Source: Zobellia nedashkovskayae
GTDB lineage: Bacteria; Bacteroidota; Bacteroidia; Flavobacteriales; Flavobacteriaceae
Assembly (NCBI RefSeq): GCF_015330125.1
Contig: NZ_JADDXR010000002.1
Coordinates: 806,001 to 870,000, forward strand
DNA: 64,000 nucleotides
Reading direction: 5' to 3'
Position numbers and translations under genes: made by a program. The notes beneath the pieces are model-generated. The model was given only the letters and a program-made list of their open reading frames with translations, made no database searches and had not been told where the DNA came from. This document shows, piece after piece, positions 26,673 to 52,741 of the stretch (positions within the stretch are counted from its first letter, which is position 1; the number at the start of each line of letters is the position of its first letter).

Positions 26673-28634
26673 CTACTCACCCAAAGACCAAGAAAGGTCA
26701 ATATTGGACTTAGCAGGAGAAACTCTTACATAACCTTGCATCTCTTGGTGCAAAGCAGAACAGAAATCCGTACAGTAAAATGGCCATACGCCTTCTTGCT
26801 TGGGTTCCCAAACCGATGTTTTGGTTTGCCCTGGCATTATTAGTAAACCAGAATTCTTTTGTCCGATCATCATAAAGCCGTGTGGTACATCAAAATCTTG
26901 TTCATGGTTTGTAATATGGAAATATACTTTATCACCAACTTTAATACCCTCTATATTATCTGGAGTAAAGTGACTACGTATCATTGCCATATAGACATGT
27001 ACTTCATTACCATCATGAACAATTCTTGCATCTGAAACATTCTTTGTAGCAAATGGATGTTCGTTTTCTGCCAGTTTATAAATTTTCTGCGATTTGGGCG
27101 CTAATATCGACGCTGGAATAGCTGCTGCGTAATGTGGCTCACCATGTGTTGGAAAATCATAAATAAGCTCCATTTTATCTCCAGAAATATCATACAACTG
27201 TGCAGAGTGTTCTAACTCAGGGCCAGTTGGCAGGTATCTATCTTTGGTAATCTTGTTCATAGACACCAAATATTTACCAAAAGGTTTTCTAGAGTTTCCA
27301 CCAGGAATCATACAGTGGCCAACAGAATAAAATGTTGGTTTTCTATCAATAACCTCCCATGTACCTACTTTCCACTTCACAACTTCCGAAGAAATAAAGA
27401 ACGTGGTATACGCATTACCTTGACCATCAAACTCAGTATGTAATGGACCTAATCCTCCACTTTTTACCTGACCAGCCAACACGTCTTCGAATTTTAAAAT
27501 AGGAAGACCATAAGCTTCACCATCAAATTTTTTACCGTCAATTGCAGCAATCATTTTATCAAACGAGAATACCGTAAGATCTGCAGAAAGCTTTCCGTTT
27601 CCAACAATATAATCTCCTGTTGGATTTACATCTACCCCGTGTGGAGATTTTGGTGTTGGCATAAAGAATATAGCACCAGGTACTTTTGTAGGATCTACAG
27701 TAAGCACTTCTTTTTTCATGGTTGAAGTAGCACTATGTGTCTCATCGCTATACACATTATGTGTATAATTTGCAGGTACCATTGTACCTCCTCCATTTTC
27801 TACATACTCCTCAATTTTCTTCCAGTTTACAGCTGCAATAAAATCTTTATCATTTTGAGAAGCATTAACCTCTAATAGCGAATTAGCTTCTTCTGTGTTA
27901 TACGTAGTAAAGAAAAACCATCCGTGGGATTTTCCTCTTCCTGGATGCGATAAATCATAGTTAAAACCTGGCATTATCAATTGGAATTTTATATCCATGC
28001 TGCCAGTCTCAGGTTCTACACTAATAAAAGACAAGGCACCTTTAAAGTTTCCTTTATAATCTTTTATAGGCATATCTCTTTGTGGAATAGGAACTGAAAA
28101 ACGTGTTCCGGCCACTACATATTCTGAATTCTCTGTGATGTATGATGAACTGTGGTTACCTGCACTATTAGGAACTTCTATAATCTCCGCAGTTTCAAAC
28201 GTTTTTAGGTCAATTCTTGCTATACGCGGCGTGTTGTTACCATTTATAAATAACCATCTACCATCTAATTCTCCATTAGTCTGAGAAATATCCGGGTGGT
28301 GAGAATCGTCTGCAGGTATAAAACCGAAAGAAGTTTCTAACATAGGTTTTGTCTCTTCCGAATACCCATATCCATTGGTTGGAAATTGAGAAAAAACAGG
28401 AATTTCTTTGAACATACGTCCGGAAGGGAGACCATAAACGGCTACATTACCGCTATATCCACCAGACATAAAGGCGTAAAACTCATCGTGTTCGCCTGGG
28501 GCTACATATACTTTCTCCGCATTATTGGAAGCAAGCGCTCCATTTGATGAAGCTTTGCCGTTTTGATCGCCGCAACCTGAAAGAAACAGGACCGACCCTA
28601 GTATAGCTACCAGGTATAATGAATACTTTTTCAT
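26673..28634 (-). CDS. nosZ: Nitrous oxide reductase, clade II (Sec/lipoprotein type)
   Basis: A 653-residue nitrous oxide reductase converting N2O to N2. The leader MKKYSLYLVAILGSVLFLSGC has no twin-arginine motif and ends in a lipobox, as in clade II Sec-type enzymes. CuZ histidine motifs appear in order: DDSHHPDIS, DLSHPGRGKSHGW, SPHGVDVNPTGDY, LHTEFDGQGNAY and GEPHYAAA. The C-terminal CuA domain carries CTDFCSALHQEM. Length is normal for clade II. It follows the cytochrome c lipoprotein gene by 54 bases and is followed by a strong hairpin. No nir or nor gene is in the window. Confidence 0.96.
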   Translation of the reverse strand: MKKYSLYLVAILGSVLFLSGCGDQNGKASSNGALASNNAEKVYVAPGEHDEFYAFMSGGYSGNVAVYGLPSGRMFKEIPVFSQFPTNGYGYSEETKPMLETSFGFIPADDSHHPDISQTNGELDGRWLFINGNNTPRIARIDLKTFETAEIIEVPNSAGNHSSSYITENSEYVVAGTRFSVPIPQRDMPIKDYKGNFKGALSFISVEPETGSMDIKFQLIMPGFNYDLSHPGRGKSHGWFFFTTYNTEEANSLLEVNASQNDKDFIAAVNWKKIEEYVENGGGTMVPANYTHNVYSDETHSATSTMKKEVLTVDPTKVPGAIFFMPTPKSPHGVDVNPTGDYIVGNGKLSADLTVFSFDKMIAAIDGKKFDGEAYGLPILKFEDVLAGQVKSGGLGPLHTEFDGQGNAYTTFFISSEVVKWKVGTWEVIDRKPTFYSVGHCMIPGGNSRKPFGKYLVSMNKITKDRYLPTGPELEHSAQLYDISGDKMELIYDFPTHGEPHYAAAIPASILAPKSQKIYKLAENEHPFATKNVSDARIVHDGNEVHVYMAMIRSHFTPDNIEGIKVGDKVYFHITNHEQDFDVPHGFMMIGQKNSGLLIMPGQTKTSVWEPKQEGVWPFYCTDFCSALHQEMQGYVRVSPAKSNIDLSWSLGE

Positions 28635-33370: not shown

Positions 33371-33877
33371 TTAAAGTTCGTTCCTGTCCCAAAACATAGG
33401 CGGCTCAATACCCAATGACCGCAAGTATACATACCCCTGACCACGATGGTGTATTTCGTTATCAATAAAATATAAAATGGAAGATTGAACAGTACCTTCA
33501 TACTGCCCAAAAAGCTTGATGATTTCATGGAAGTTCTCAACCCCTATTTTAGTCCAATTGGTATTGATTTCTTCTGTGGCTTCATCCCAAAGTTCCAATA
33601 CTTTGCTTTTGCTGTTTCCATGAGCCACCTCTTCCGTAAAGGCAGCCTGCTTACCTGTAACTATTTCTTGAATTCCAGGCCCAGCTATACTCAATAGTTC
33701 ATCTACCATTTTTGAAAAGGGGCGCATACCACCAATGGAATATTCAAAGAAATCTTTCTCCGGAAATGCTTCAATTACCTTTCTGGTTAAAGTTCTATGC
33801 CCTTGCCAATGGGCCAATAGTTCGGCAGGAAGAATTACTTGGGTTACTTTTTCTGTGGATGAGACTGCTGTGTTCAT
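33371..33877 (-). CDS. DinB-family (YfiT-like) protein
   Basis: A 168-residue four-helix-bundle protein of the DinB/YfiT superfamily. Recognisable segments are ELLAHWQGHRTLTRKVIEAFPEKDFFEYSIGGMRPFSKMVDELL and the C-terminal DNEIHHRGQGYVYLRSLGIEPPMFWD, where histidines supply the usual metal site. Family members act as metal-dependent thiol transferases or are uncharacterised stress proteins. The promoter carries an operator nearly identical to that of the WYL regulator at 42.5 kb, so it is likely part of that regulon. Confidence 0.84.
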   Translation of the reverse strand: MNTAVSSTEKVTQVILPAELLAHWQGHRTLTRKVIEAFPEKDFFEYSIGGMRPFSKMVDELLSIAGPGIQEIVTGKQAAFTEEVAHGNSKSKVLELWDEATEEINTNWTKIGVENFHEIIKLFGQYEGTVQSSILYFIDNEIHHRGQGYVYLRSLGIEPPMFWDRNEL

Positions 33878-34034: not shown

Positions 34035-35159
34035 CTATTGTATTAACTTGGCGAAATTATAACTGGCATTTACCAGATTCGTATAACTGGAAGCCATTGC
34101 TTCTGGCAAAGTAGAAATACCCCTTACTATTGAATTCACATAAGCCAGTCCAAATTTTTCTTGTTGTTCTATGGATATAGAAACCGAACCACATAAGGCT
34201 GCAACTGGTATTTTATGCTTCTGAGCAGAAGTAACTACCCCATTTATAGTTTTCCCAGAAAGCGTTTGTTCATCTAACTGACCTTCGCCAGTAATAATCC
34301 AATCGGCATCTGCAATTGCCTCATCAAAATGAGCTAGTTCTTTTACCAAATCTATACCAGACGTAAGTTCTCCTCTTAGAAATATGATGGCTCCACCGCC
34401 TATTCCACCAGCGGCACCAGAACCTTTTAGTTTTTGAAGGTTAATATTGTAGGTATCCAAAGCTACTTTTGCAAAGTTCTTTAAACCTTTATCCAGAATT
34501 TCTATTTCTTCTTCTGATGCTCCCTTTTGTGCAGCATAAATCTTTGCCGCCCCATTAGTACCGTAAAACGGATTGGAAACATCACAAGCAATTTTAAACT
34601 GTGCATCTGCCAATAACGGATGAACGTTTGAAGCATCTATACTTCTAACCTTACCCAAATTACTTCCTATAGGTTCTAAATCTAAACTATAATCTGCCTT
34701 GAATATATACCCTAAAGCATTGGCCATACCCATACCACCATCGTTTGTTGCGCTTCCTCCTATGCCAAGGATTATTTCTTGAGCACCTCTTTCAAGAGCA
34801 TCAGCAATAAGTTCACCTGTACCAAAGGTGGTGGTGTTCATACAGTTCCTATCCGCATCCTCTAATAATTTAAGTCCGGATGCCTCGGCCATTTCTATAT
34901 AAGCAATATGAGTTTCAGTGGCATATAAATAGGAAGCGTTTATTGGCCTGAATAACGGATCGTTTACGGTAATTGTAATTTTATCGCCATGTATGTAATG
35001 TTTTACCACATCTATGGTTCCGTCGCCGCCATCCGCTAAAGGCATTTTTACGATTTCGGCATTATTAAAGACATGCTTTAAGCCTTCCTCTACAGCATCA
35101 CAGAACTCAAATCCAGAGAGGGAACCTTTAAATTTATCTGGAGCGATTACAATTTTCAT
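34035..35159 (-). CDS. Glycerate kinase (GlxK/GarK family)
   Basis: A 374-residue glycerate kinase of the GlxK/GarK family, phosphorylating D-glycerate (usually to 2-phosphoglycerate). The start MKIVIAPDKFKGSLSGFEFCDAVE, the PLADGGDGTIDVV block, GIGGSATNDGGMG and GSGAAGGIGGGA are diagnostic. No glyoxylate carboligase or tartronate semialdehyde reductase gene is nearby. Instead it follows a symporter and a glycosylglycerate-type hydrolase, so it probably handles glycerate released from a glycoside. It starts 10 bases after the symporter stop. Confidence 0.92.
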   Translation of the reverse strand: MKIVIAPDKFKGSLSGFEFCDAVEEGLKHVFNNAEIVKMPLADGGDGTIDVVKHYIHGDKITITVNDPLFRPINASYLYATETHIAYIEMAEASGLKLLEDADRNCMNTTTFGTGELIADALERGAQEIILGIGGSATNDGGMGMANALGYIFKADYSLDLEPIGSNLGKVRSIDASNVHPLLADAQFKIACDVSNPFYGTNGAAKIYAAQKGASEEEIEILDKGLKNFAKVALDTYNINLQKLKGSGAAGGIGGGAIIFLRGELTSGIDLVKELAHFDEAIADADWIITGEGQLDEQTLSGKTINGVVTSAQKHKIPVAALCGSVSISIEQQEKFGLAYVNSIVRGISTLPEAMASSYTNLVNASYNFAKLIQ

Positions 35160-35169
35160 AGCGCTTATT

Positions 35170-36774
35170 TTAGTTCAAAATATTAGGCAAAGAAATACTA
35201 AACAATACTATGGCAACAAAATAGGCCAGTAAGATGGCAACCTCTTTTTTACCTGAATAGTATACAACCTCTAAGCCTTCGTTAACTTCTCTTTTAACAG
35301 TATAACTAACCGCAAGAGCTACCACAATAGTAACTAAACAACCCAAAGCGTTCCACCAGAACCAAAAGATTTGCGGTACATATAACCATAGGTAAATATT
35401 AAACAATACCCCAACTACGATTCCAATATTAGCACCAAGCGCATGTGTTCTCTTAGTAAGAATTGCCAGAATAAATGCAGCCAAAATTGGGCCGTAGAAA
35501 ACAGAGCTTATTTTATTGATAACTTCTATAACCGTACCTTCTATATTTCCAGCAAAAAAAGCAAAGAATAAACATACAAGACCCCAAAAGATAGATAATA
35601 ATTTTGAGTACGTCATGTACTTCTTATCCGGCATATTAGGATGAAATCGCTTTACGAAGTCCTCCATAGTAACTGCAGAAAGTGAGTTCACCGTTGAACT
35701 TAGGGTGGACATAGCTGCAGACATAATTGCAACAATCAATATACCTATAACGCCATTTGGCAAATATTTGATTATGAAAACTGGCACCATTAAATCAGCC
35801 TTTTTTCCCTCTAAAGAAGAAATATTGGCTTGATACACTAAATCCATCTGCTCTTGAAAACTAGCATCCTGAACTAGGAGTGTACCCAAAACAAGCCCCA
35901 TAATACAATACGTTAGAGTAAAGGGGAACCTAAGTAGGCCGTTGGCCATCATTAATTTTTTAAGATTGGGCATGCTGCTAGAAGATAACAATCGTTGTGA
36001 TTGCGTCTGGTCTGTTCCATAATAAGAAGCATATAAAAAAAAGCCCCCTATGACCATTGGCCAAAAACCAAATTCATCATTACCATCTGCATTATTAAAA
36101 CCCCATTTACTAAAATCTACAGCCGTAATCCTGTCTCTGTCTACATGGGTAAGAAAATTGTCTATACCGCCCAATTCACTAAAACCGTAAAAAAGACAAA
36201 TGATAATACCGATAAAAAGAATACTCATTTGAATTACATCGCCCCAAATAACGGCTTTCATTCCTCCTTGGTAAGAATAGACCATGGTTATAAGGCCAAT
36301 GATTAAAATGGATATCCAAAAATCCATCTGAATAGTAGCCTGAAGAATCAATGCCATGGTATACACCATTACACCGGTAGCTACCGATCTACTTATTTGA
36401 AAAACGAAACTGATCAGCAGTCTGGATGAAGCATCAAAACGTGTTTCTAAATATTCATAAACACTGACAATTCCTGATTTGTATAGGGTAGGCAGTACAG
36501 CAATCAACAAAAAAGCCATTGCCAAGGGCACACCTAACTCATAGGTAAGCCATTGCATACCTCCTCCGGCCTTAAGCCCTACAAAGGCTGGTGCCGAAAT
36601 AAAACTGATAGCAGAAAGTTGCGTTGCCATAGCCGAAAGGCTCAAAGGCAACCATGACGTTTGCCTTCCTCCTAGGAAATAATCTCCTCCGGAATTATTG
36701 TCTTTAAACAAAAAACCCAATCCCAAGAAACCGACTAAGTAAACGACGATTATGATATAATCTATATAATTCAT
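35170..36774 (-). CDS. Sodium:solute symporter (SSS family)
   Basis: A 534-residue symporter with about 14 helices and the SSS pattern GGDYFLGGRQTSWLPLSLSAMATQLSAISFISAPAF near the start. MSAAMSTLSSTVNSLSAVTMEDF (about 355-377) is the conserved helix 8-9 region with sodium-site serines. SSS members move sugars, acids or glycosides across the inner membrane. Its location between the GH63-type hydrolase and glycerate kinase suggests a glycosylglycerate, glycerate or hexose substrate. Confidence 0.89.
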   Translation of the reverse strand: MNYIDYIIIVVYLVGFLGLGFLFKDNNSGGDYFLGGRQTSWLPLSLSAMATQLSAISFISAPAFVGLKAGGGMQWLTYELGVPLAMAFLLIAVLPTLYKSGIVSVYEYLETRFDASSRLLISFVFQISRSVATGVMVYTMALILQATIQMDFWISILIIGLITMVYSYQGGMKAVIWGDVIQMSILFIGIIICLFYGFSELGGIDNFLTHVDRDRITAVDFSKWGFNNADGNDEFGFWPMVIGGFFLYASYYGTDQTQSQRLLSSSSMPNLKKLMMANGLLRFPFTLTYCIMGLVLGTLLVQDASFQEQMDLVYQANISSLEGKKADLMVPVFIIKYLPNGVIGILIVAIMSAAMSTLSSTVNSLSAVTMEDFVKRFHPNMPDKKYMTYSKLLSIFWGLVCLFFAFFAGNIEGTVIEVINKISSVFYGPILAAFILAILTKRTHALGANIGIVVGVLFNIYLWLYVPQIFWFWWNALGCLVTIVVALAVSYTVKREVNEGLEVVYYSGKKEVAILLAYFVAIVLFSISLPNILN

Positions 36775-37076
36775 GAGTAATTTTTCAATTGGTTTGGTCT
36801 CCTATTTTATTCTTTGTTCTATGAACAGAATATGGTAGACGCCTGCTGCGCAATTGCTTTTAAGAACTAAAATACAGCAGAAATATCTTACATTTCATTA
36901 AAATAGACTCTCCACGGCGGAAATTGAACAACACATTACAATTTACCGCCATTTTGAGTCAAAAATGAGAACAACAATAGCTCAACAACTAGCAACTAAT
37001 TAACGCGAACCAAACATGTTGGCTGCACGAACACTTAGACTTTCTTGTCCTCAAAAAAAAACTAAACATTTACCTC
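36775..37076. other. 302-base gap upstream of the symporter
   Basis: No coding frame is convincing. It presumably holds a promoter for the symporter-kinase unit. One hairpin is visible: GGCGGAAATTG (36916-36926) against CAATTTACCGCC (36939-36950), with one bulged base and no T-run. No copy of the LacI-type operator was found here. Confidence 0.4.
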
Positions 37077-38387
37077 TTAACCTTTAAGAAGGTCTATTAT
37101 CAATGCGGCGGTCCATGAGAAATTATCGCCACCGTAACCTTTTCTAATTTCTTCACCAGTATCTTTTCTACAGTCAAAATATTCAAAAAAGCCATCGCGT
37201 TCAACAAGTTCAATTGAATCATTTTGAACACGCGCTGCAATTTCCTTATATCCGTACTCTTTCAATCCACGGTATAGCATCCAATTCATATTGATCCAAA
37301 CGGGACCTCTCCAATATTTTCTAGGATTGAAACGATTATCTGTAGGATCAAACGATGCACATAAATACTTATCATCACCTCCAAAGCGGTCCATCATAGT
37401 ATTTACTAGTACCTCAGCTCTTTCTTTACTTGGAATACCGGCAAATAAAGGGGAAAATGAGGAAGAAGAAACATGGCGTATAGGCTTATCATTTCGCATA
37501 TCATAATGAACATATGCACCCAATTCATTATCCCATAGTTTCTGGTTGAAAGCAGCAATACTTCTTTCTTGATTCTTTCTTAAATATGCTATTTTATCTT
37601 CATTGCCACCAAACAATTCATATAGCTCCATTAAAGCCTTATTAGATTTAATGAGCATGGCATTGAATAACGGGTCTTGTACTAAGAAAGGAGAAAGCTC
37701 GGCTATTTTAGCATCATCGTAGTTATTTTGCTTTGCAATATCTATGATGTACAAATAGTGGTCATACTCCCTTTTTGATGGACGTTGAGAAGCATCTACA
37801 TGCGTTGTGTCTTTTCGTTCAAAAGTATATTCCGGTGGGTTCATGGTGTCCCAGATATCATCCCATACAGGAGAATTATCTGTACCAGATTCCCAGTTGT
37901 GATAAATGTATACTAAACCTTCATTTTGTGGATCACGATTTTCGTAAAAATACACATGGTTGTCATACACCTTATCTATCTGCCCTTTTATAAAATTGAG
38001 CATATCTTCCTTATCATCTACAATATTTAGCATATCTTGGAGAACAAAGGCAGTAACAGGGGGTTGGGTCATTCCTGTAGACTTATATTTTTTTGATGAA
38101 AGCGGATGTAAGTCTGACCTGTGAAAATCATGACCTGGAAAATAAGAATCGTCATCTGTATGAAAAACAATGTGTGGTATAAAACCATTATCCCATTGCG
38201 CATTTAACAAAGTCTCTATTTCTTTTTTTGCGTGATCTATATTGTAATGGGCTAGGCCTACTGCAATAAAACCGCTATCCCATTTCCATTGAAACGGATA
38301 AAGTCCTTTACTAGGTATAGTAAAACCACCTTTTTGAAAATTGGCGTCTAAAACGTTAATTGCCCTATTTATTATATTTTCTTTCAT
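37077..38387 (-). CDS. GH63-type glycosylglycerate hydrolase (mannosyl-/glucosylglycerate hydrolase-like)
   Basis: A 436-residue cytoplasmic (alpha/alpha)6-barrel hydrolase of the short GH63 type that splits 2-O-alpha-mannosyl- or glucosylglycerate into sugar and glycerate. Visible features are PFQWKWDSGFIAVGL, the acid-containing NWESGTDNSPVWDDIW (Asp at about 170), YWRGPVWINMNWMLYRGL, FFEYFD (candidate base Glu at about 402) and GGDNFSWTAALIIDLL. The frame reaches 38417, but the ATG at 38387 (MKENIINRAINVLDANF) is preferred because the longer version runs into a hairpin. No signal peptide. A trehalase-like or other glucosidase role is the alternative. The adjacent glycerate kinase favours a glycerate glycoside. 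Confidence 0.82.
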   Translation of the reverse strand: MKENIINRAINVLDANFQKGGFTIPSKGLYPFQWKWDSGFIAVGLAHYNIDHAKKEIETLLNAQWDNGFIPHIVFHTDDDSYFPGHDFHRSDLHPLSSKKYKSTGMTQPPVTAFVLQDMLNIVDDKEDMLNFIKGQIDKVYDNHVYFYENRDPQNEGLVYIYHNWESGTDNSPVWDDIWDTMNPPEYTFERKDTTHVDASQRPSKREYDHYLYIIDIAKQNNYDDAKIAELSPFLVQDPLFNAMLIKSNKALMELYELFGGNEDKIAYLRKNQERSIAAFNQKLWDNELGAYVHYDMRNDKPIRHVSSSSFSPLFAGIPSKERAEVLVNTMMDRFGGDDKYLCASFDPTDNRFNPRKYWRGPVWINMNWMLYRGLKEYGYKEIAARVQNDSIELVERDGFFEYFDCRKDTGEEIRKGYGGDNFSWTAALIIDLLKG

Positions 38388-38405
38388 AACGTACATAAGG
38401 ATAAA

Positions 38406-38436
38406 ACACATTGGCAATAAGCCACCACCAATGTGT
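38406..38436 (-). terminator. Hairpin between the TonB receptor and hydrolase genes
   Basis: ACACATTGG (38406-38414) and CCAATGTGT (38428-38436) form a 9-bp stem with a 13-base loop. On the minus strand TTTTAT follows. It lies between the receptor stop and the hydrolase start and may be an attenuator or processing site that sets unequal expression. Confidence 0.6.
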
Positions 38437-38481
38437 CTTTGATTTAAAAACTAACTAAACTCGCACTAATTCAAATCATTT

Positions 38482-41160
38482 TTAGAAATTGAAAGTCGCT
38501 GTCAAGAAGAATCTTCTTGGTAGAATAGGACGACCAACAAAGAACTCGGATTCACTCTGTCCTGCAGCACCCGCTCTTGGGTTACCTTCCGTAATACCAT
38601 CACTATCAAAAAGATTGAAGATGGAGAAACCAAGACGAACGCTCTGGTTTTCTTCTGGCGTACCAAAAGTGTAACCTGCACCCAATCTACCGATTGGAAT
38701 AGCGTCTAATTCTATATCATTTACATCAGAAGAGAATTTACTACCCGTGTAATTAAAACCAAAATTAGCATCGAACTTTCTGTTATCGTAGTAAGCACCT
38801 AGCGAACCTAAAAAGTTAGGCTGTCTTGCCAATTCATTGCCCACGTTAGCCTCGGAAGAAGTCCCGTTTACCAAATCAAAATCTGTGTTTTTAGTAATTT
38901 CGTGACCCTGGTAAGTTACCGTACCACGAAGATTAAAATTGCTAGCTACACGATAGTCACCAGTAGCTTCCAAACCTATAGTTCTAGTGTCCTGTTCAGA
39001 ACGGGTTTCATCTATTAACTGACCACCCACTATAGCTTGCTGTATTTTAATTCTATCTTTCAAAGCCACATAATAAGCAGCAACCGATCCAGAGAATTTA
39101 GAAGAACCAAATTTAGCACCAGCTTCAAATTGAATAATATTTTCAGGATCATAAGCATTTTCAGAAATACCTGCTACCGGAGCAAAACCTCTTATTTGTG
39201 GAAAGAAATATCCTTTAGAAAAGTTAGCATATAAATTGGTTACATCGCTCAATTCATAAAGACCTGCAAAAGAAACTGCCCATCCAGAAGCTTGAATAGA
39301 TGATCTTATGAAACTACCATCGGCAGTTTGTACATCACTCAATTCCGTAATTAACTCTGGGTTATCATAAACTGTTGCACTTGTTATTCCGCCTTTGGCG
39401 TTTTCACCATCTGTATGCTCATATCTAAAACCAACGTCAAAACGCCATCTGTCAAAAATCATCTCATCGGTTAAATAGAAAGCCAATCTGTTCTGAGATA
39501 AGAAATTATTTGAGGTTTGACCTATACGGTTGTATAAACCACCTTCTGAGTATACTACATTACCTCCAGCTGCATCGGCATAATTCAAATTCACCAATCT
39601 AGGAGCGTTATTGAATTCAGATAGAACACGGTATTGATAGTTTACATCTTCTGCCTCAGTACGTGCTATAAAAGTACCTAAAGTTACGTTGTGACTTCCA
39701 CCATTTAAAGTCTCTAAAGTCTTCGTTAAAGAAGCCTCTCCCGAATAATCAGTCATTGGTCTTAAACGATCTACATGAAGGTTATCAATTACCAAATCCG
39801 AACCATTTATTTGTGAATTAGGATTTCCGCTCTGATAGCGAGCTGTGTACCCTTGGTTGTCAGGAGCTATACTAGCTACATAGTTATCTAATGTAATTGG
39901 GTTTCCGTTGTCTCCGTTTCCTCCAACATACAAAGCAAAGTTGTGCTTGTAGTTAGCATATTTTACTTTGGACTTGAATCTTAAATCATCTTGAAATCTG
40001 TAATCAAAATCAGCTAAAAGATATCCGCCAGTTGTAGAAACACCATCAGCAATTGGGCTATTATATGTGCCACCTGGAGTAATAAAAGAAGTGTTAGCCA
40101 ATTCCCCTGTCAATAACTGCTCTACAGCTTCTCCGTCATTTCCTGCCAAACGCTCTCTACTTCCACCTGATAAAGGTATTGGAAGGTAGAACTGTGCTTT
40201 ATCATTTATAAACTGGCCATGTACGGTAAACGAACCTTTGTCAAATTTCTTCTTGATATTAGCCCTGAACTGCACCCCTTTTGTTGGCAAACCAGTATCT
40301 ATAGGTCCACGGTCATGTCTTACAAATCCCGTAAAAGCATAGTATGTATTAGAATCTTCACCACCCAATTGGCCACCACTGTAGAAATCGGTTTTTAACC
40401 GTCCCATATTAGCAACTTCTAGGTTTACGATGTTACCAGGATTGGTATCACCCGTTTTACTTGTATAGTTAATGATACCTGCAACAGAACCCGCACCATA
40501 TAAGATAGCAGAACCACCACGTACAAATTCAACACCTTTAAAACCAATATCTGGTCTGGCATATACATCATGCGCGGAAGAGTTTAAACCAAATGTGCTC
40601 ATTAAAGGCATACCATCATATTGTAATGGGTTAAACACATATTGACCACCAGAAGGCAGACCTCTAACGAATACGTTAGTTGCTGTTTCACCACCACCAC
40701 CTTCAGCAGTAATACCAGGTACACTTCTTAAAATATCTGCCTGACTATTGGCCGATAGTTTGGTGATCTCTGCCATTTTTACAGAACTAATAGACAACGG
40801 AGCCTGCTTTTGAGACCTGAACGTACTAGAAGCAGTCAAAACAACCTCGTCCAATTGTTGGCCACCTTCTTGTAGTTCAAAATTTACCGTTACATCTGCT
40901 CCGGTTAACTCTACTGGCTTATCTAAGGTAGTAAATCCTAAATATGAAGTTCTTAATACTTGGCTGCCTTCTAGGTCTGTTGAGAATGTGTAGTTACCGT
41001 CAAAGTCAGATGTTGTACCAGAAGTACTACCTGCTATTATAATATTCGCTCCCGGGATTGGATCCCCGGCACTGTCCGTAATGGTACCGGAAATTCCAGT
41101 CTGGGCAAATGCTCCAGTACCTAGAAGAAGACCGATTACCGCAAAAAAAACTTTCTTCAT
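38482..41160 (-). CDS. TonB-dependent outer membrane receptor
   Basis: An 892-residue receptor with a signal peptide (1-19, ending AFA), an N-terminal carboxypeptidase-regulatory-like domain (about 22-100), a plug domain (about 115-235, with VFVRGLPSGGQ and GVEFVRGGSAILYGAG) and a C-terminal beta barrel ending in FFLTATFNF. No SusD partner is adjacent, so it resembles the stand-alone CirA/FecA-like type. It heads the leftward operon with the GH63-type hydrolase and faces a LacI regulator, so it probably imports the small glycoside over the outer membrane. A siderophore role is less likely from context. Confidence 0.9.
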   Translation of the reverse strand: MKKVFFAVIGLLLGTGAFAQTGISGTITDSAGDPIPGANIIIAGSTSGTTSDFDGNYTFSTDLEGSQVLRTSYLGFTTLDKPVELTGADVTVNFELQEGGQQLDEVVLTASSTFRSQKQAPLSISSVKMAEITKLSANSQADILRSVPGITAEGGGGETATNVFVRGLPSGGQYVFNPLQYDGMPLMSTFGLNSSAHDVYARPDIGFKGVEFVRGGSAILYGAGSVAGIINYTSKTGDTNPGNIVNLEVANMGRLKTDFYSGGQLGGEDSNTYYAFTGFVRHDRGPIDTGLPTKGVQFRANIKKKFDKGSFTVHGQFINDKAQFYLPIPLSGGSRERLAGNDGEAVEQLLTGELANTSFITPGGTYNSPIADGVSTTGGYLLADFDYRFQDDLRFKSKVKYANYKHNFALYVGGNGDNGNPITLDNYVASIAPDNQGYTARYQSGNPNSQINGSDLVIDNLHVDRLRPMTDYSGEASLTKTLETLNGGSHNVTLGTFIARTEAEDVNYQYRVLSEFNNAPRLVNLNYADAAGGNVVYSEGGLYNRIGQTSNNFLSQNRLAFYLTDEMIFDRWRFDVGFRYEHTDGENAKGGITSATVYDNPELITELSDVQTADGSFIRSSIQASGWAVSFAGLYELSDVTNLYANFSKGYFFPQIRGFAPVAGISENAYDPENIIQFEAGAKFGSSKFSGSVAAYYVALKDRIKIQQAIVGGQLIDETRSEQDTRTIGLEATGDYRVASNFNLRGTVTYQGHEITKNTDFDLVNGTSSEANVGNELARQPNFLGSLGAYYDNRKFDANFGFNYTGSKFSSDVNDIELDAIPIGRLGAGYTFGTPEENQSVRLGFSIFNLFDSDGITEGNPRAGAAGQSESEFFVGRPILPRRFFLTATFNF

Positions 41161-41218
41161 AATTGTAGTTTTAAAAGTTGAGTGAACTTGAGTTATTATT
41201 AATTTGTTAATACAGGAC

Positions 41219-41295
41219 CAAAACTATTTGAATATCATATTATTTCGACAAAAAAATTGCAAATTTGTTATGCAAACGTTTTCGCAAACGTTTGC
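41219..41295. promoter_or_regulatory. Divergent receptor/lacI control region with double LacI-type operator
   Basis: GCAAACGTTTGC (41284-41295) is a perfect palindrome with the LacI-family core AAACGTTT. It overlaps a second near-palindrome TGCAAACGTTTTCGCA (41271-41286). A -7 element TAGTTTTG for the receptor lies at 41226-41219 on the minus strand. For lacI, a TTTG inside the palindrome (41291-41294) precedes TTTATTTG (41317-41324) by 22 bases. Binding by the adjacent LacI protein is inferred. Confidence 0.7.
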
Positions 41296-41356
41296 AATTC
41301 ATAATTTTTTCCTAAATTTATTTGCATTAGGTTGAAAATCAACATCTTTTTACATT

Positions 41357-42382
41357 ATGGGCAAAAGACATAACACCACTTTAAAAGATTTATCCAAAGA
41401 ATTAAACCTTTCTATATCAACAGTTTCTCGCGCGCTTAACAACCATCCAGATATTAATGAAAACACAAAGCAGAATGTTAAAGACCTAGCGCGTAGAATG
41501 AATTATTCGCCTAATTTATTCGCCAGAAGTTTTCGGTCTCAAAAGACAAATATCATAGGAGTAGTTGTTCCTAACATCACACATTATTTTACCTCTACCA
41601 TTTTAAAAGGCATTTTGGAAGAGGCAGAAATACAAGGATATCGTGTTATTATTTCCGAATCCAACAACAGCGAAGCCAAGCAGACCGAAATGCTAAATAC
41701 CATGACCCAATTTGGCGTTGATGGCATTTTGATGTCCCTCACTAGAAAAATAGAAAAAATAGAAGACCTACTTCAAACATTGAACCGCGTACCTATAGTA
41801 TTATTTGATAAAGTATCCCAAAAAATACCATGCACCCAGATTGTTATTGATGAGGAACAAGCTGCCTTTAATGCCGTGGAGCACCTTATTGAATTAGGGA
41901 AAGAGCGGATAGCCATTATTAAAGAAACCGAGAATTCATACAATTCCGAAAAGCGCTATGCGGGCTATCTTCGTGCTTTGGAGCACCACGGGATCAAAAT
42001 TCGAGAAAAGATTATTTTAAGTACAGAAGATATATCACTCATTCATGGAAGGCGCCTCACCAATATTCTTTTAAGTATGAAAAAACGGCCCGATGCTATT
42101 TTTGCCATTACGGATAATGCCGCCATTGGTGCTATAAAGGCACTCAATAAATTCAAGGTTAAAATACCCGAGGAAATAGCGGTGGTTGGTTTTAGCAATT
42201 CGGCAAACTCAAAAATTATTCAACCTGAACTAACTACCGTAGACCAGCCTGGCGACAAAATTGGTCGTACCTCCGTAAAATATCTCATAGAAGAAATTGA
42301 AAATCCATCAAACGATGTCATCACTAAAACCGTTGAAATAAAAACCACATTAGTGGTCAGGGATTCCTCTTTAAGGGCTTAG
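41357..42382 (+). CDS. LacI-family transcriptional regulator
   Basis: A 341-residue LacI/GalR regulator with HTH TLKDLSKELNLSISTVSRALNNHPDIN (about 8-34), hinge helix NLFARSFRSQKTN and a periplasmic-binding-protein-like sensor domain (about 60-338). It is divergent from the TonB receptor and separated from it by a double palindromic operator. It probably responds to the glycoside or a product such as glycerate or hexose. Repression of its own promoter is likely since the -33 element lies in the operator. Confidence 0.92.
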   Translation: MGKRHNTTLKDLSKELNLSISTVSRALNNHPDINENTKQNVKDLARRMNYSPNLFARSFRSQKTNIIGVVVPNITHYFTSTILKGILEEAEIQGYRVIISESNNSEAKQTEMLNTMTQFGVDGILMSLTRKIEKIEDLLQTLNRVPIVLFDKVSQKIPCTQIVIDEEQAAFNAVEHLIELGKERIAIIKETENSYNSEKRYAGYLRALEHHGIKIREKIILSTEDISLIHGRRLTNILLSMKKRPDAIFAITDNAAIGAIKALNKFKVKIPEEIAVVGFSNSANSKIIQPELTTVDQPGDKIGRTSVKYLIEEIENPSNDVITKTVEIKTTLVVRDSSLRA

Positions 42383-42442: not shown

Positions 42443-42551
42443 TTTTCGCAAAGTGTACATAAGTTACGTTAACAGCTAAAAAAAAATGAAATTCCGATAT
42501 TTTTCAGGTCAGTCTCTGAAGTTTTATCTTTGGAATATATACCGCACTCTT

Positions 42552-43514
42552 ATGGGCTTGGACACCATTAACAGATTTGACCGCATAGTTGCTATATTAA
42601 TTCAATTGCAATCAAAACGCATAGTAAAAGCACAAGAATTGGCTGATCGTTTTGAGGTTAGTCTGCGTACGATTTATAGAGACATTCGCTCATTGGAAGC
42701 ATCGGGCGTGCCAATTATCAGTGAGGCCGGCGTGGGGTATTCCATTATGGAAGGGTACCGTTTACCTCCTGTTATGTTTACCAAGGAGGAAGCCTGTAGC
42801 TTTGTTGCCGCAGAAAAGTTGATGGAAAAATTTACCGATACTTCTTTAGGTTCTCACCACAAATCTGCTATGTATAAGGTAAAGTCGGTTTTAAGGGGAA
42901 AGGAAAAGGATTGGATTTCAACTTTGGAAGCTCAGGTTTTAATAGACCCATCTCAAACACCTTTTGATGAAAATATACCCAACGCACTGGAGATTCTATT
43001 TGAAAGTATAGCGGATAAAAAACAAGTGTTCCTAAAATATCACTCCCTAAATTCGGAAAAACCGTCTGACCGCTTTATTGAACCTGTGGGACTTTTTCAT
43101 GAGAATAACTTTTGGTATGTACTGGGCTATTGTCATGTCAGGAATGATTACAGACAATTTAGAACGGATAGAATGTTAAGGATTTCCAGAAGCGACGAAC
43201 CTTTTACTCTTGAGCATGGTTTATTAGACGAGCATCTGAATAAACAACCGGAGAGAGAAAAGACCAAAATTATAATTTCTGTTGATAAAAGTATTGCCCG
43301 TTACATCTCTATAGGAAGAAAACAATATGGGTTTGTTTCCGAAGAAATCAAAGAAGATAAGGTTCTCATGACCTTTATGACTTCGGATATGGAGAATGGC
43401 TTTCCTAGATGGTATGTAATGTTTGGTGATTATGCAGAAATTATAGAACCTAAAAGCCTAAAGGCACGTGTAATTGAAATCCTTAAGGAAGCTCAAAACC
43501 GACTTGCAAATTGA
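42552..43514 (+). CDS. YafY-type HTH-WYL transcriptional regulator
   Basis: A 320-residue regulator with an N-terminal HTH_11 domain (NRFDRIVAILIQLQSKRIVKAQELADRFEVSLRTIYRDIRSLEASG) and a C-terminal WYL domain (KQVFLKYHSL..., with WYVLGYCHVRNDYRQFRTDRM). The frame continues up to an ATG at 42486, but family members begin near NRFDRI, so the ATG at 42552 is preferred. WYL domains bind ligands or nucleic acid and often respond to DNA damage or stress. Shared operators link it with itself and the DinB operon. Confidence 0.86.
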   Translation: MGLDTINRFDRIVAILIQLQSKRIVKAQELADRFEVSLRTIYRDIRSLEASGVPIISEAGVGYSIMEGYRLPPVMFTKEEACSFVAAEKLMEKFTDTSLGSHHKSAMYKVKSVLRGKEKDWISTLEAQVLIDPSQTPFDENIPNALEILFESIADKKQVFLKYHSLNSEKPSDRFIEPVGLFHENNFWYVLGYCHVRNDYRQFRTDRMLRISRSDEPFTLEHGLLDEHLNKQPEREKTKIIISVDKSIARYISIGRKQYGFVSEEIKEDKVLMTFMTSDMENGFPRWYVMFGDYAEIIEPKSLKARVIEILKEAQNRLAN

Positions 43515-43766
43515 TTCCAATATATCCAGCAACCAACTTCGTAGCTAGAGTTATTTTAGATTGTTGCTCTACTCAATTGATAATATTTAAACCTTCCACA
43601 TCGCATTCCACCTTAGTTTTTATACAAAATCTAACATTTCTTATCTGTAGATATAAGTGTAGCTCGCAATCAACAACATGTCAAAAAATTGTTATGTAAA
43701 TAGAAATGACCTACAAGTTTTCATGTGAAAACCTTATTTTAGCGGCACTCTAAAAAACTTAAAGAC

Positions 43767-44657
43767 ATGACCTTATTATTAATGGCCGCTGGTAGCGGTA
43801 GCAGATACGGAAAACTGAAACAATTTGACGATTTAGGCCCTAACGGCGAATTCTTAATGGAGTTCGGTATTTACGATGCCCTGAAAAATGGTTTTGACCA
43901 TATTGTTCTTATTACTAAAAAGGAAAATGTTTCTTTGGCGGAAGACCATTTGAGACCAAGAATACCAGCCAACATCAAGCTAGATGTTTTGGCTCAAGAA
44001 ATTACGGATTTACCGGAAGGATGTTCTTTTTCAGGTGATCGTAAAAAACCTTGGGGTACTGCACATGCAGTCTGGACAGCTAGAAACGTAATTAATGGTC
44101 CTTTTGCCGTATTGAATGCTGATGATTTTTACGGACAATCTGCCTACGCAAACGCAGCTGATTTTGCACGTGAGCATAATAACGATGATACTTTTGCCCT
44201 TGTTGGGTACACTTTAAAAAACACTTTGTCAGAACATGGTTCTGTATCTAGAGGGGTTTGCCAAGTAAGTGGTGACGATTTGGTTTCTGTTGATGAACGC
44301 CTAAAACTTGAACCAAAAGACGGTAAAGTACTTGATCTTGATTCTGGTAATGAATACACAGGCGAAGAGCAGGTAAGCATGAACTTCTGGGTATGCCAAC
44401 CTTCTATTTTTGATAAAATTGAAAGTGAGTTCAGAAAATTTTTAGCTGACGATAATTTAGCCGTAACCAGTGAACTTTATATTCCTAAAATGGTTCAAGA
44501 GATGTTACAGGCTAAAGAAATAAAAGTAAAAGTTGTACCATCAGGTGGTGATTGGTTTGGTGTAACATATGCTAGCGATAGAGAAAAGGCCGTAGCTGAC
44601 TTGCAAGAAAAAACCGATGCGGGTAAATACCCTTCTCCTCTTTGGCCAAAACAATAA
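43767..44657 (+). CDS. Sugar nucleotidyltransferase-like protein
   Basis: A 296-residue protein of the nucleotidyltransferase (GT-A-like) superfamily. The start LLLMAAGSGSRYGKLKQFDDLGPNGEFLMEF carries the G-x-G-x-R signature, followed by KPWGTAHAVWTA and the metal-binding VLNADDFYG. It would join a sugar-1-phosphate to a nucleotide. Its stop overlaps the start of the NahK-like kinase (TAATG), so both are made together. Substrate specificity is not evident. Confidence 0.85.
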   Translation: MTLLLMAAGSGSRYGKLKQFDDLGPNGEFLMEFGIYDALKNGFDHIVLITKKENVSLAEDHLRPRIPANIKLDVLAQEITDLPEGCSFSGDRKKPWGTAHAVWTARNVINGPFAVLNADDFYGQSAYANAADFAREHNNDDTFALVGYTLKNTLSEHGSVSRGVCQVSGDDLVSVDERLKLEPKDGKVLDLDSGNEYTGEEQVSMNFWVCQPSIFDKIESEFRKFLADDNLAVTSELYIPKMVQEMLQAKEIKVKVVPSGGDWFGVTYASDREKAVADLQEKTDAGKYPSPLWPKQ

Positions 44658-45721
44658 TGAGTAAGTATTCTAACGAACAACTTAACGAACTGTTAGGGCA
44701 ATTTTCTATGCCCCAAATAAAGTACTTGATCAAACCGTTAACGGACGGTTTGATCAATGATACTTTTTTGATATATGACGGTTCTACTCCACTATACATA
44801 TTACAACGTGTAAATCACCTTGTCTTTACAGATGTAGAAGGGTTGATGAACAACATACAACAAGCCTTTAAATATTTAGAGGATAACGATTACAGTAAAA
44901 TAACCTTAGTATCTCCAAAAACGGGACAGAGCCACTATATTTCTCCTACTGGGGACCATTGGCGACTTATGACGTTTATTGATGGTAGCACGGCATACAA
45001 TACCACTGAGAACACCAAGATTGCTTTTGAAGCGGGAAGAATCATCTCCAAGTTCAATTCGCTTTTACAAGAAGCTAATCTAGACGATTACGTAGATACT
45101 ATTCCTCGTTTTCATGATATAACCTTGCGTCAAGAACAATTTAAATCCGCCCTTAAAACTGCTGCTCCGGAGAAATTGGAAGTTGCAAAAAAGGCCATTG
45201 TTTTTACTAATGAAATTTTAGAAAAGCTTAACGCTTTAAATTTAAAAGAATTACCCATTAGAGTTTGCCATAACGATACTAAATTAAATAACATTCTCTT
45301 CTCAAAAGAGACCAATAAGGCACTATGTCTAATTGATTTGGACACACTTATGAAAGGCTATTTTCTTTACGATTTTGGCGATGCGGTACGTACTATAGCA
45401 AATACAGCTGCAGAAGACGAACAAGACCACAGTAAAATTATTTTTGACAAGGATTTATTTGAAGGCTTTATAGATGGCCTTGCCGTTAACAGCTCTTTCT
45501 TAACCAAGTCTGAAATTGAAACGTTGTCTTGGGGTGCCGTTCTCATGCCCTTCTTACACGGTATACGAGCTTTAACAGATTATCTAAATAATAATGTCTA
45601 TTATAAAGTTGCTTATGAAAACCAAAATTTAGATCGTAGCCTCAGCCTTTATAATTTTACTCAAAAAGCATTGAATCATATGGATTATATGGAGAATGTG
45701 CTAAAGGAGAAACTGTCCTAA
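44657..45721 (+). CDS. NahK-like anomeric sugar kinase (APH fold)
   Basis: A 354-residue kinase with an aminoglycoside-phosphotransferase fold that resembles N-acetylhexosamine 1-kinase. YILQRVNHLVFTDVEGLMNNI, WRLMTFIDGSTAYNTTEN, the catalytic loop RVCHNDTKLNNILF and the metal-binding IDLDTLMKGYFLYDFGDAVR match that family closely. It would make hexosamine- or hexose-1-phosphate. The frame opens at a TTG at 44642, but the ATG at 44657, overlapping the upstream stop, is chosen. The pair could convert free sugar directly to NDP-sugar. AmgK/MurU-type cell-wall recycling is an alternative. Confidence 0.84.
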   Translation: MSKYSNEQLNELLGQFSMPQIKYLIKPLTDGLINDTFLIYDGSTPLYILQRVNHLVFTDVEGLMNNIQQAFKYLEDNDYSKITLVSPKTGQSHYISPTGDHWRLMTFIDGSTAYNTTENTKIAFEAGRIISKFNSLLQEANLDDYVDTIPRFHDITLRQEQFKSALKTAAPEKLEVAKKAIVFTNEILEKLNALNLKELPIRVCHNDTKLNNILFSKETNKALCLIDLDTLMKGYFLYDFGDAVRTIANTAAEDEQDHSKIIFDKDLFEGFIDGLAVNSSFLTKSEIETLSWGAVLMPFLHGIRALTDYLNNNVYYKVAYENQNLDRSLSLYNFTQKALNHMDYMENVLKEKLS

Positions 45722-45929
45722 ACTTAAAAGACACCTTATTTAAGTAGCTCTGGAAAATGAAAATCAAACTTAAAGTAGGTTTTCAAAAAAAGATCTATAT
45801 ACTTGCACTTATGAGTTTAGCTCAAACAAACCAGGAATAAAGAGCTGGCTAAATATCAACTACAGTATTTTTACTACATTGAAATCTTATTTCAAATATT
45901 CCATAGATACTAAATCGGTTTCTGGTTTT

Positions 45930-48900
45930 ATGTCCAAAAAAGTTTACGCCATACTTGCATGCCTACTCTTCTTTCTGTGCCTTTCCGCACAAGAAAGCGA
46001 TCTTGAGTTCTCACAAAACTATACGATTTCCAATGGTTTAGCGCATAATGGGGTAACCTCCATTCTTGAAGATTCAAGAGGTTACATTTGGGTAGGTACT
46101 TTTGAAGGTCTGAACCGTTATGATGGATATGAATTTAAAACCTTCAAAAACACCCTAAAGGATGATGTTTTTGTGAGTAATCGTATTAGGTCACTTAAAG
46201 AAGATTCCAACGGAAATATCTGGATCGGTACTGATGAGGGGATATCTATATACGACTACAACTTAGAAAAATTCACGAACATCTATTCTAATCAACTCGC
46301 CAAAAAAGGAGTTAAAGGACCTGTTGTTAGAGATATCATCATCAATAAAAAGGAAGAAATAATTTTCTGTGCCACGGAAAAATATGGCATTTTAGTTTTC
46401 AACGAAGATTATACTTTAAAGGAAGAATATTCACCCACCGCATTTTATAGAAATGGGGCCGTTGAATTCTACAAATCATTATTCATAGATGACAGTACCT
46501 ATCTGTATGCTACTTCCGTTGGTCTACTTTCATTTAATTTAAAAGATCTGCAATTCACTAAAATACTTTCTAACGAAATAAACAATTGCCTGTCGGTAAT
46601 GCGTGTTGATACTACTACTTTTCTGATTACCTTAGAAAAAGGGATTACTATCCTATCTTATTCTAAAATGGATGAAGGTTATGATTATCAGATAATTAAA
46701 AGAAATCTTCTACCCTCGAAAAATTTCAATAGTTCGGGATTTGACCACCATAATAATCTTTGGTTAGGAACATTGAATAACGGTGCAGTCCGCATTAATG
46801 ATATTAAAAGTCTTTACAGCGATTCAGACATTGATTATTCGGTATTTAAATTTGGTAGCAAACAACTTCGTATCAGCTGTTTTCACAGGACATCAAATAA
46901 TAGATTTTGGATTGGCTCATATGATAAAGGCCTTTTTAGATTTGATCTTAAAAAAAATCCATTTAAAGAATTTAGAGGAAAGAGTCCTTTTGAATTTGGA
47001 GTAAGTGATAGGCATCTTATTCAAATATCGGCTTTAGATGACCAGAACGTATACCTGACAAAAAATCAAGGAGGTCTTGCACTTTTTAATACAAACGAAG
47101 GTAGATTTGAACCTCTACCCTTTACATTTGACGAAAAATATGAGTCTCAAATTTCTTCCGTTTACGTAGATTCTAAAAAAAGAACATGGATGAAAGTAGC
47201 CAAAGTGGGTTACTTTAGATTAAATCCTGATGAAGACAAGCCGCAATTCATTGATACTAGTTCTTTGCCTGAATTTTCACAAGTAGAGTCTTACAAAATA
47301 ACAGAAGACAAAAAGGGAAACATTTGGTTAAGCACAAAAGTAGGGGTCTATAAATTATCTGTAGATAAAGAAGGCTTGGTCACCAGTATAGAAGCCCTGA
47401 ACGACAACCCTTATTTTAAAAATTTTAAAATAACTCTGGCCCGTTATATATATGCAGACCCAGAGCATGATTTTATTTGGGTAGGTACAGCAGAAGATGG
47501 TCTCTTTAGAGTAAACATTAAAGACGAGCCCTTACTGAAAAACGCAAAAGTCAAGCATCTCCGGATGGACAAGAAAAAGGGTGGTCTACCCAATAATTTT
47601 GTTTCGGCCATAATCAGAACACCAGATGGGAATTTATGGATAGGAACAGAAGGCGCCGGAATCTGTAAAGTTGAAAATAGTGAGAATGAACCTCTATTCA
47701 TTCCATATTCCGAAAAGGACGGGCTATCCAATAATGTTGTAAAGAGCATAAATATTGACAACGCAGGTAACCTTTGGATTGCCACCAATATTGGCTTGAA
47801 TAAATTTTATCCTAAAGAGAAAAAGTTCAGGAAATTCGGAATAGAAGACGGTTTACCTTTTGAAGATTTCTGGTATGCTTCGAGCTACCTGAATAATGGC
47901 AATTTGGTATTGGCCGGTCTTGAAGGCTTCTCTTTTTTTAAGCCCCACTCTATAAAAGATGCAGAAGCCTTACCTGTTTTGCACTTTGGTGACTTTAAGA
48001 TTTTCAATAAAACAGTGCTCCCTCAAGATACAATCAACAAAAGGGTTTTATTTTCTAAACGACTTCATAACGGTCAAACCTTAAACTTAAAATATAACGA
48101 GAACGTTTTTACGGTAGAAGCATTATCGCTACACTTTGCATCACCTGAAAATCATTTTTTAAAATACAGGCTATTGCCAATAGATCAAAATTGGTTGCAG
48201 ACTACGTCTGACCAACGAATGATAAACTATAATGGTCTACAACCAGGAAAGTATTCGCTTGAAGTGGCCGCATCAAACTCTATTGGTGAGTGGACGAAAC
48301 CCAAAACATTAAGTATTGTTATTTCCCCTCCGTTTTGGAAAACCCCTTTAGCATATGTGATTTATGCTCTACTAACAATTTTAATATTAGGTACCATTCT
48401 GTTTTATATTATAAAGAACCAGTCTTTACGCTATAATATTCAATTAGAGCAAATAGAAAAAGATAAAGTTAAAGAAGTTAATGCTGCCAAACTTCGCTTT
48501 TTTGCCAACATTTCCCATGAATTAAAAACACCGGTCAACCTTATATCCAGTCCGATAAAGCTTTTATCGGAACGTTATAAAGACAATATTGATTCACAAG
48601 AAAAACTGAACATTGTTGCTAGGCAGTCTAAAAAAATAGGCCGACTTATAGATCAGATTCATGATTTTGAACGTGTGGATGCCAATTTAATGGAGATGGA
48701 TTATTCCAGATTCTATTTTAATGAATTTATAGAAACTATTGTACCTGATTTTCATTACTTAGCCTATAATAGTCATAAGAGATTACAGGTCATTTCTGAC
48801 GACTCCAACATTGTTGTATCTGCAGATCGCGATAAGCTGGAAAAAATATTCAACAACTTATTAAGTAATGCGTTTAAATATACCGGCGCCAATGATATTA

Positions 48901-50063: not shown

Positions 50064-50099
50064 AAGAACCTTTTATTAGTTCTTAGCATATTCGACAAT

Positions 50100-50135: not shown

Positions 50136-50267
50136 ATTTTGTACGTATAGATACATCATTCTCCTCCTGAAAAATACCTTTGAACTTAGTGACAAAAGGC
50201 ATAACTTATTTTTTACAAAGAGTTATAATCAAAAAAATCAAATCACTAGTATCAAAAAATCAGGATT

Positions 50268-52726: not shown

Positions 52727-52741
52727 TAGCACCTATTATAA

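Follow-up and report, generated by a model that had tools for sequence, protein, structure and literature searches.

A candidate operon for the use of exogenous glycosylglycerate, most likely digeneaside, in Zobellia nedashkovskayae

A 64,000-nucleotide stretch of the Zobellia nedashkovskayae genome (assembly GCF_015330125.1, contig NZ_JADDXR010000002.1, positions 806,001 to 870,000; hereafter the window) contains a five-gene set at 34035–42382, composed of a TonB receptor, a short GH63-type hydrolase, an SSS symporter, a class-I glycerate kinase and a divergent LacI regulator. An earlier note, made from the letters alone, had described these genes as a candidate locus for glycosylglycerate utilisation, and both the open reading frames (ORFs) and the Pfam matches agree with its gene assignment. 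The assembly comprises 4.94 Mb in 2 contigs. Transcription on the minus strand runs from the TonB-dependent receptor through the MGH1-like hydrolase and the SSS symporter to the glycerate kinase, with the LacI-type regulator on the plus strand. The features are as follows.

34035–35159, minus strand: class-I glycerate kinase (GarK/GlxK type); PF02595, 455 bits; TIGR00045, 427.9 bits against a cut-off of 168.45; PDB 3cwc/1to6
35170–36774, minus strand: SSS-family sodium:solute symporter; PF00474, 150 bits; TIGR00813, 245 bits against a cut-off of 184
36775–37076, minus strand: 302-base gap between the hydrolase and symporter genes
37077–38387, minus strand: MGH1-like GH63 hydrolase, 436 amino acids from the likely ATG at 38387; PF22422; ORF as listed extends to the TTG at 38417
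38482–41160, minus strand: TonB-dependent outer-membrane receptor; PF07715 (Plug), PF13715 (CarbopepD_reg_2), PF00593
41219–41226, minus strand: TAGTTTTG, candidate -7 promoter element, 45 bases downstream of the operator
41272–41295, no strand assigned: predicted tandem LacI-type operator, two copies of GCAAACGTTTGC 12 bases apart, with one mismatch in the second copy
41357–42382, plus strand: divergent LacI-family regulator; PF00356 (LacI), PF13377 (Peripla_BP_3)

The hydrolase matched the PF22422 profile (MGH1-like_GH) over its full length (317 bits against a cut-off of 27; residues 40–436, profile positions 1–356 of 356). In domain and residues it agrees with the MGH1-like mannosyl-/glucosylglycerate hydrolases, a subgroup of GH63, in a short form of about 440 amino acids. 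Because most relatives start at or near the 11th residue of the listed ORF and the closest public cluster (P0001) is 436 amino acids long, the gene probably starts at ATG 38387 and not at TTG 38417. The best solved relative was TTHA0978 of Thermus thermophilus (PDB 2z07, 4wva-c; 308 bits, E 1e-90), followed by the glucosylglycerate hydrolase of Mycolicibacterium hassiacum (MhGgH) at 212–220 bits. Over the aligned stretches, identity was 167/408 (41%) to the Thermus enzyme and 143/413 (35%) to MhGgH. TTHA0978 is named a mannosylglycerate hydrolase (MgH) in the accessible part of PMC6608630.

The other Pfam matches of the hydrolase were to Trehalase (PF01204, 72 bits) and Glyco_hydro_63 (PF03200, 36 bits). 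The former, together with the public names of the family, would suit an enzyme that is a trehalase or an oligosaccharide glucosidase with the kinase as an incidental neighbour: among 120 listed members, 18 of the 36 informative names are trehalase, amylo-alpha-1,6-glucosidase or (glycogen) debranching enzyme, and 12 are MGH1-like. We consider this highly improbable, with 308 bits to Thermus MgH as against 29 bits to both the best trehalase and processing alpha-glucosidase and about 45 bits to YgjK, with the glycerate-binding residues kept, and with strong linkage to a glycerate kinase (see below). Assignment to GH37 trehalases or GH63 oligosaccharide glucosidases was dropped on these scores, by which the enzyme stands apart from both groups, as the earlier note had expected. 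The gene context contradicts the trehalase and debranching names in public databases.

Active-site conservation was assessed at 22 positions of MhGgH, comprising substrate contacts, catalytic residues and their partners (residue list from the accessible part of PMC6608630). Twenty of them are identical in both the window hydrolase and Thermus MgH: Tyr36, Trp40, Trp42, Asp43, His78, Tyr88, Phe89, Gln115, Trp177, Gly180, Asp182, Arg216, Tyr222, Tyr225, Tyr375, Trp376, Trp381, Glu419, Ser435 and Trp436 (MhGgH numbering). The catalytic Asp and Glu are thus kept, together with the glycerate-subsite residues Tyr36, Trp40, Tyr88, Arg216, Tyr222 and Tyr375. Of the two differing positions, Tyr191, the open-state partner of the acid, is Trp in the window and Leu in Thermus, and Gln434 is Phe in both. 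According to the same source, Gln434 of MhGgH forms a hydrogen bond with glucose and has a water contact to mannosylglycerate. The difference was followed in an alignment of 20 flavobacterial sequences, consisting of the window hydrolase and 19 others 50–91% identical to it (a second Zobellia sequence, L060, and 18 of the 19 other family matches, the G007 copy being excluded). Phe433, at the Gln434 position, was invariant in all 20, as were most of the compared residues; His82 and Phe93 were not quite invariant. The placement of the hydrolase rests on scores, identity and residues, and it favours mannosylglycerate without proving it.

The glycerate kinase is the only PF02595 copy in the genome. 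It belongs to class I (GarK/GlxK) according to TIGR00045, and the E. coli-type equivalog cut-offs of 625 and 686 were not reached (335 and 320 bits). The earlier note had held that no glyoxylate pathway explains this kinase. That claim stands for glyoxylate carboligase, for which the genome holds three related enzymes of 337, 163 and 150 bits, none near the cut-off of 711, and for the kinase being the sole PF02595 copy; it does not extend to tartronate semialdehyde reductase, hydroxypyruvate isomerase and other glycerate-producing routes, which were not searched. The glyoxylate route was dropped as a reason for the kinase on the carboligase score.

Linkage between kinase and hydrolase was examined in a family sample of 149 genomes, including that of the window, with a hydrolase threshold of E 1e-30 or better. 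The hydrolase was found in 20 genomes and the kinase in 62; the kinase occurred in all 20 hydrolase genomes versus 42 of the 129 without hydrolase (Fisher's test, p = 3e-9, uncorrected for kinship between genomes). Eighteen of the 20 have the kinase on the hydrolase strand, about 1.6 to 2.4 kb downstream, and the symporter separates the two genes. The remaining two genomes (G072 and G102, 88% and 83% complete) carry kinase and hydrolase on different contigs, and there the symporter adjoins the hydrolase. The operon was present in 19 of the 148 genera sampled from the family, about one in eight.

Genome contigs were then scanned with the alignment of 20 sequences, and the best 80 of at least 586 relatives were kept, so the counts below apply to close relatives. 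The set overlaps with the family sample, several contigs being identical (e.g., L067 and L112). The genera represented include Zobellia, Maribacter, Arenibacter, Cellulophaga, Algibacter, Winogradskyella, Aquimarina, Tenacibaculum, Lutibacter, Flavobacterium and others. By ORF clustering, the symporter was found in 76 of the 80 loci, the kinase in 72, the regulator in 61 and the receptor in 58. Under a stricter rule (gaps below 300 bases, one strand) the symporter was counted in 74 and the kinase in 69, with L083 and L086 failing by that rule alone. In 61 of the 80 loci a LacI gene and the operon's first gene point away from each other, and a second layout lacks both receptor and LacI (L075–L079 and others). 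Five of the eight loci without a kinase (L102, L103, L130, L148, L155) are truncated where the contig stops close to the hydrolase, and three (L145, L150, L158) have none within the stretch covered. Since the gene set recurs in most of the best 80 related loci, it is not a chance neighbourhood. Conservation of kinase and hydrolase together, on which the earlier proposal depended, is borne out in both sets, and the hydrolase scores and kinase linkage support its suggestion of a glycosylglycerate-utilisation function.

Within Zobellia, the hydrolase was present in all 9 genomes examined, and the full five-gene set in all four loci whose neighbourhood was read (the window, L060 in genome G004, L061 and L082). 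The hydrolase of Z. barbeyronii KMM 6746 shares 98% identity with the one in the window. One of the nine Zobellia copies (L010 in genome G008, 1501–2838; 85% identity) has an in-frame TGA, possibly marking a pseudogene or a sequencing error. A GNAT-family acetyltransferase gene lies directly 3' of the hydrolase gene inside the operon in 16 of the 80 loci (L090, L091, L094, L095, L101, L103, L107, L108, L114, L118–L121, L124, L140, L153); PF13302 was matched in the two relatives scanned, L070 and L091. No GNAT remnant was detectable in the 302-base gap of the window (best tblastn E 0.16).

The neighbourhood of the kinase was also read in 19 hydrolase-less genomes (L040–L058), chosen from the 42 by kinase similarity and not at random. 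In 12 of them, the kinase lies between a uppP/BacA-like gene and an ftsX-like gene, and in 6 a GntP permease adjoins it. The complete cassette lies between the same uppP-like/ftsX-like neighbours in hydrolase-bearing L066, L068, L069, L070, L106, L107, L115, L122 and others. As this site is shared with and without the cassette, the kinase occupies a place independent of the other genes, next to which the import-hydrolysis module was gained or from which it was lost. The adjoining permease, together with L158, a hydrolase locus with GntP in place of the kinase, would fit a kinase that serves a separate free-glycerate route and a hydrolase that acts on another small alpha-glycoside acid. We give this explanation little credence: most genomes with the hydrolase have it in a single operon with the kinase and the symporter (kinase in 69 of 80 loci by the strict rule), and the subsite +1 residues match the glycerate-holding ones.

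The identity of the released sugar is addressed by genes that extend the operon. A phosphomannose isomerase gene follows the kinase directly, within 14 bases, in 8 of the 80 loci. It is of type I in six (L106, L112, L114, L117, L118, L146; gaps of -20 to +11 bases), with the NCBIfam manA model over its cut-off for the one scanned (L146), and a type-II-like stand-alone isomerase cupin in two (L096, L098), with PF01050 at 40 bits for the one scanned (L096), where the GMP_PMI equivalog cut-off was not reached (33 versus 373). Any same-strand gene at most 40 bases after the kinase was found in only 10 of the 80 loci, and the isomerases account for 8 of them. A type-I isomerase likewise closes two cassettes of the family sample, L070 and L067, the latter on the contig of L112. 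The occupation of the same place by two unrelated folds for one reaction argues that mannose 6-phosphate is made. In the window genome, manA lies elsewhere (C2:2680867, over cut-off), and a mannokinase is possible among two ROK-family proteins.

Several points weigh against mannosylglycerate as the natural substrate. The operon at the window contains neither a mannokinase nor an isomerase among its genes. A hydrolase-less genome (L048) also has a type-I isomerase beside the kinase, so the isomerase link may in part be to the kinase site. The operon is also found in some Flavobacterium species of Antarctic or inland waters, among them the Antarctic F. gillisiae and F. degerlachei; these are not seaweed habitats, and digeneaside would be no obvious food there. 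The Thermus and Selaginella MgH act with similar efficiency on glucosyl- and mannosylglycerate, so membership of this family does not by itself settle which sugar is released; mycobacterial glucosylglycerate hydrolase (GgH) prefers glucosylglycerate almost tenfold (both from the accessible part of PMC6608630). The best-scoring named model for the hydrolase is NCBIfam NF047898, glucosylglycerate hydrolase (335.3 bits). Finally, 3 of the 80 loci (L143, L159, L161) carry in the operon a sucrose-phosphorylase-like (GH13_18-type) protein of the alpha-amylase family, 564–566 amino acids long. Two of these scored 205 and 194 bits with the sucrose phosphorylase model, below its cut-off of 334, and the one compared with solved structures was closest to sucrose and glucosylglycerol phosphorylases. 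GH13_18 also holds glucosylglycerate phosphorylases, according to the accessible parts of PMC11009771 and PMC8950772. A metagenome relative, P0149, bears the source name glucosylglycerate phosphorylase, and several others are named sucrose phosphorylase or sugar phosphorylase. The gene may thus point to glucosylglycerate at those three loci.

The habitats, the NF047898 match and the phosphorylase-like enzyme would all suit glucosylglycerate, from cyanobacteria and other bacteria, as the main natural substrate, cleaved to glucose and glycerate, with mannosylglycerate as a side activity. We judge this unlikely, though it deserves more weight than a trehalase or a free-glycerate route: the NF047898 cut-off of 550 is not reached, the window hydrolase has Phe in place of the hexose-contacting Gln434 of the glucosylglycerate enzyme, and two kinds of phosphomannose isomerase stand beside the kinase in 8 of the 80 loci. 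The isomerase and phosphorylase clues both fit glycosylglycerates as the substrate class.

No signal peptide was evident in the hydrolase when judged by eye, so the glycoside would have to enter the cell whole. The nearest solved relatives of the symporter are the iodide (NIS), multivitamin (SMVT) and monocarboxylate (SMCT1) carriers and 5nv9, a sialic-acid carrier, all ahead of glucose carriers. These relatives are mostly anion carriers and hint weakly at an anionic glycoside. The mannosyl-3-phosphoglycerate (MPG) synthase family was not found in the window's genome (one-step mannosylglycerate synthase was not searched), and glucosyl-3-phosphoglycerate synthase gave 12 weak matches there, the best at 61 bits against a cut-off of 262. 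The substrate therefore probably comes from outside, and recycling of an own solute is unlikely.

Among the 59 loci with both receptor and regulator (window included), three (L101, L127, L128) were dropped because the intergenic stretch fell outside 40–500 bases, which left 56 receptor/LacI intergenic regions for a palindromic-motif search with sites called at a score over 6. The motif CGCAAACGTTTGCG was found in 46 of the 56, including that of the window, with a log-likelihood of 633 versus 19, 22 and 16 in three base-shuffled sets (8 starts per shuffled set versus 25 for the real set). With at most one mismatch, GCAAACGTTTGC occurred in 42 of the 56 regions, and in 13 of them a second copy lay exactly 12 bases away. 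In the 4.94-Mb genome, the exact operator 12-mer is present at one place only, the 41272–41295 locus. With at most one mismatch there are 10 places, two of them at the operon, versus 9 for the reversed control pattern; a wider LacI regulon was rejected on this chance-level count. Two other one-mismatch sites were looked at, one about 3 kb before the housekeeping manA and one at C2:594354, and both lie inside long ORFs. Within the window, a scan allowing two mismatches yielded 5 matches where 2.75 would be the chance average, which is not unusual, so the evidence for the operator is its position and conservation.

The operator is followed by TAGTTTTG, which resembles the flavobacterial -7 promoter element. 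An exact TAnnTTTG is present downstream in 11 of the 42 operator regions, starting 45–46 bases after the operator in 9 and at 57 in 2. Downstream of the operator, the aligned regions showed T-rich blocks at distances of about 20 and 50 bases, so the operator appears to be placed immediately before the core promoter. Such geometry would be more like that of an activator site than of a blocking one.

From the gene set, the active site, the conservation and the operator, all read from sequence, we infer the substrate, the transport steps and the direction of regulation. The locus is probably a dedicated catabolic operon for an exogenous glycosylglycerate, most likely 2-O-alpha-D-mannosyl-D-glycerate (digeneaside). 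The TonB receptor would carry the solute across the outer membrane, and the SSS symporter would bring the intact anionic glycoside into the cytoplasm. There, the MGH1-like GH63 enzyme would split the 2-O-glycosylglycerate into mannose and D-glycerate by inverting hydrolysis, with Asp180 as the acid and Glu412 as the base by homology. The kinase would phosphorylate the released D-glycerate for lower glycolysis; the product of this kinase family is 2-phosphoglycerate. Mannose would enter metabolism through phosphorylation and mannose-6-phosphate isomerase; the isomerase gene lies elsewhere in the window genome but adjoins the kinase gene in several relatives. Control of the operon would fall to the LacI-type protein, acting at the tandem palindromic operator that directly precedes the receptor promoter.

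The view of the earlier note that such a route would be new did not survive comparison with the literature. Genes of Zobellia galactanivorans for mannitol and digeneaside degradation have Maribacter homologues (accessible part of PMC8072126, citing Barbeyron et al. 2016), and digeneaside is listed among possible substrates of polysaccharide utilisation loci in the accessible part of PMC6298971. Among papers that mention digeneaside, these two are the ones concerned with its bacterial breakdown, as judged largely from titles and abstracts. Digeneaside degradation in Zobellia is thus already in print, and the comparison of relatives makes the idea much firmer. The texts of PMC5613140 (digeneaside, GH63, glycerate, mannosylglyc) and PMC9296495 (glycerate, GH63, digeneaside) mention none of the terms given. 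No enzyme or growth test of bacterial digeneaside breakdown by this route was found in the literature searched, which left subscription papers mostly outside. The present analysis adds the operon-wide conservation, the operator, the variants with an isomerase or a phosphorylase, the Phe in place of Gln434 and the frequency of trehalase and debranching names. The red-algal source given in the earlier note holds mainly for the Ceramiales, most of which accumulate digeneaside, and the osmotic role of this solute is only minor (accessible part of PMC8523428).

Compared with known systems, the window operon shares its genus and proposed substrate with the digeneaside genes of Z. galactanivorans, as far as these are described in PMC8072126. 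Its hydrolase has the catalytic and substrate-contact residues of Thermus MgH in common, together with Phe at the Gln434 position. Thermus makes the mannosylglycerate solute itself; the window operon, in contrast, has outer- and inner-membrane importers, and its genome no MPG synthase. M. hassiacum GgH (PDB 5ohc and others; PMC6608630, in part) has the same catalytic pair and glycerate subsite, with the Gln434 to Phe difference, and is thought to serve recovery from nitrogen starvation, whereas the window operon would take up an outside solute. The Escherichia coli pathway likewise uses mannosylglycerate as a carbon source, with uptake and phosphorylation by the phosphotransferase system (PTS) permease MngA followed by the GH38 enzyme MngB (accessible part of PMC2815779). 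The window operon has SSS and MGH1-like proteins instead of these, and its proposed route runs through a TonB receptor, the symporter and a GH63 enzyme acting on unphosphorylated substrate. SusCD-type polysaccharide utilisation loci also unite a TonB receptor, a glycoside hydrolase and a regulator. Unlike them, the window operon has no SusD partner among the ORFs between 34035 and 42382, a receptor far below the SusC/RagA cut-off (TIGR04056, 93 bits versus 368), a probably cytoplasmic hydrolase and a small-molecule substrate, and it was not classed as a SusCD locus.

The outer neighbours of the operon are a DinB-like gene (33371–33877) and a WYL regulator gene (at 42486); among the loci examined they are common to Zobellia only, so the operon unit ends there. 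The genes at 42486–45721 encode the WYL regulator, a nucleotidyltransferase-like protein and an APH-type kinase-like protein, adjoin the operon only in Zobellia loci, and are possibly a separate sugar-1-phosphate salvage unit. Further on, 45879–60924 holds a hybrid two-component sensor, a sulfatase, a GDSL esterase, a GMC oxidoreductase, a TonB receptor and SusD, and looks like an ordinary polysaccharide utilisation locus for a sulfated glycan. On the other side, 26673–28634 encodes a nitrous oxide reductase-like protein (PF18764 propeller repeats).

Taken across the family, a broader reading can be offered tentatively, at somewhat less than an even chance: mannosylglycerate may be a widespread flavobacterial carbon currency, used through a self-contained, single-regulator import-hydrolysis-kinase operon whose enzyme often bears the name trehalase in databases. 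This operon would have been recruited repeatedly next to glycerate kinases already in place and then enlarged, depending on the solute available locally, by phosphomannose isomerases of unrelated kinds or by a glycosylglycerate phosphorylase; freshwater and polar species with little exposure to red algae would be among its carriers. How marine bacteria use digeneaside can be tested directly on the gene set that the conserved operon provides, together with its operator and the isomerase variants. The gene context also questions the database habit of naming MGH1-like hydrolases trehalases, and the combination of MGH1-like hydrolase, symporter and glycerate kinase offers a marker for glycosylglycerate users in genomes and metagenomes.

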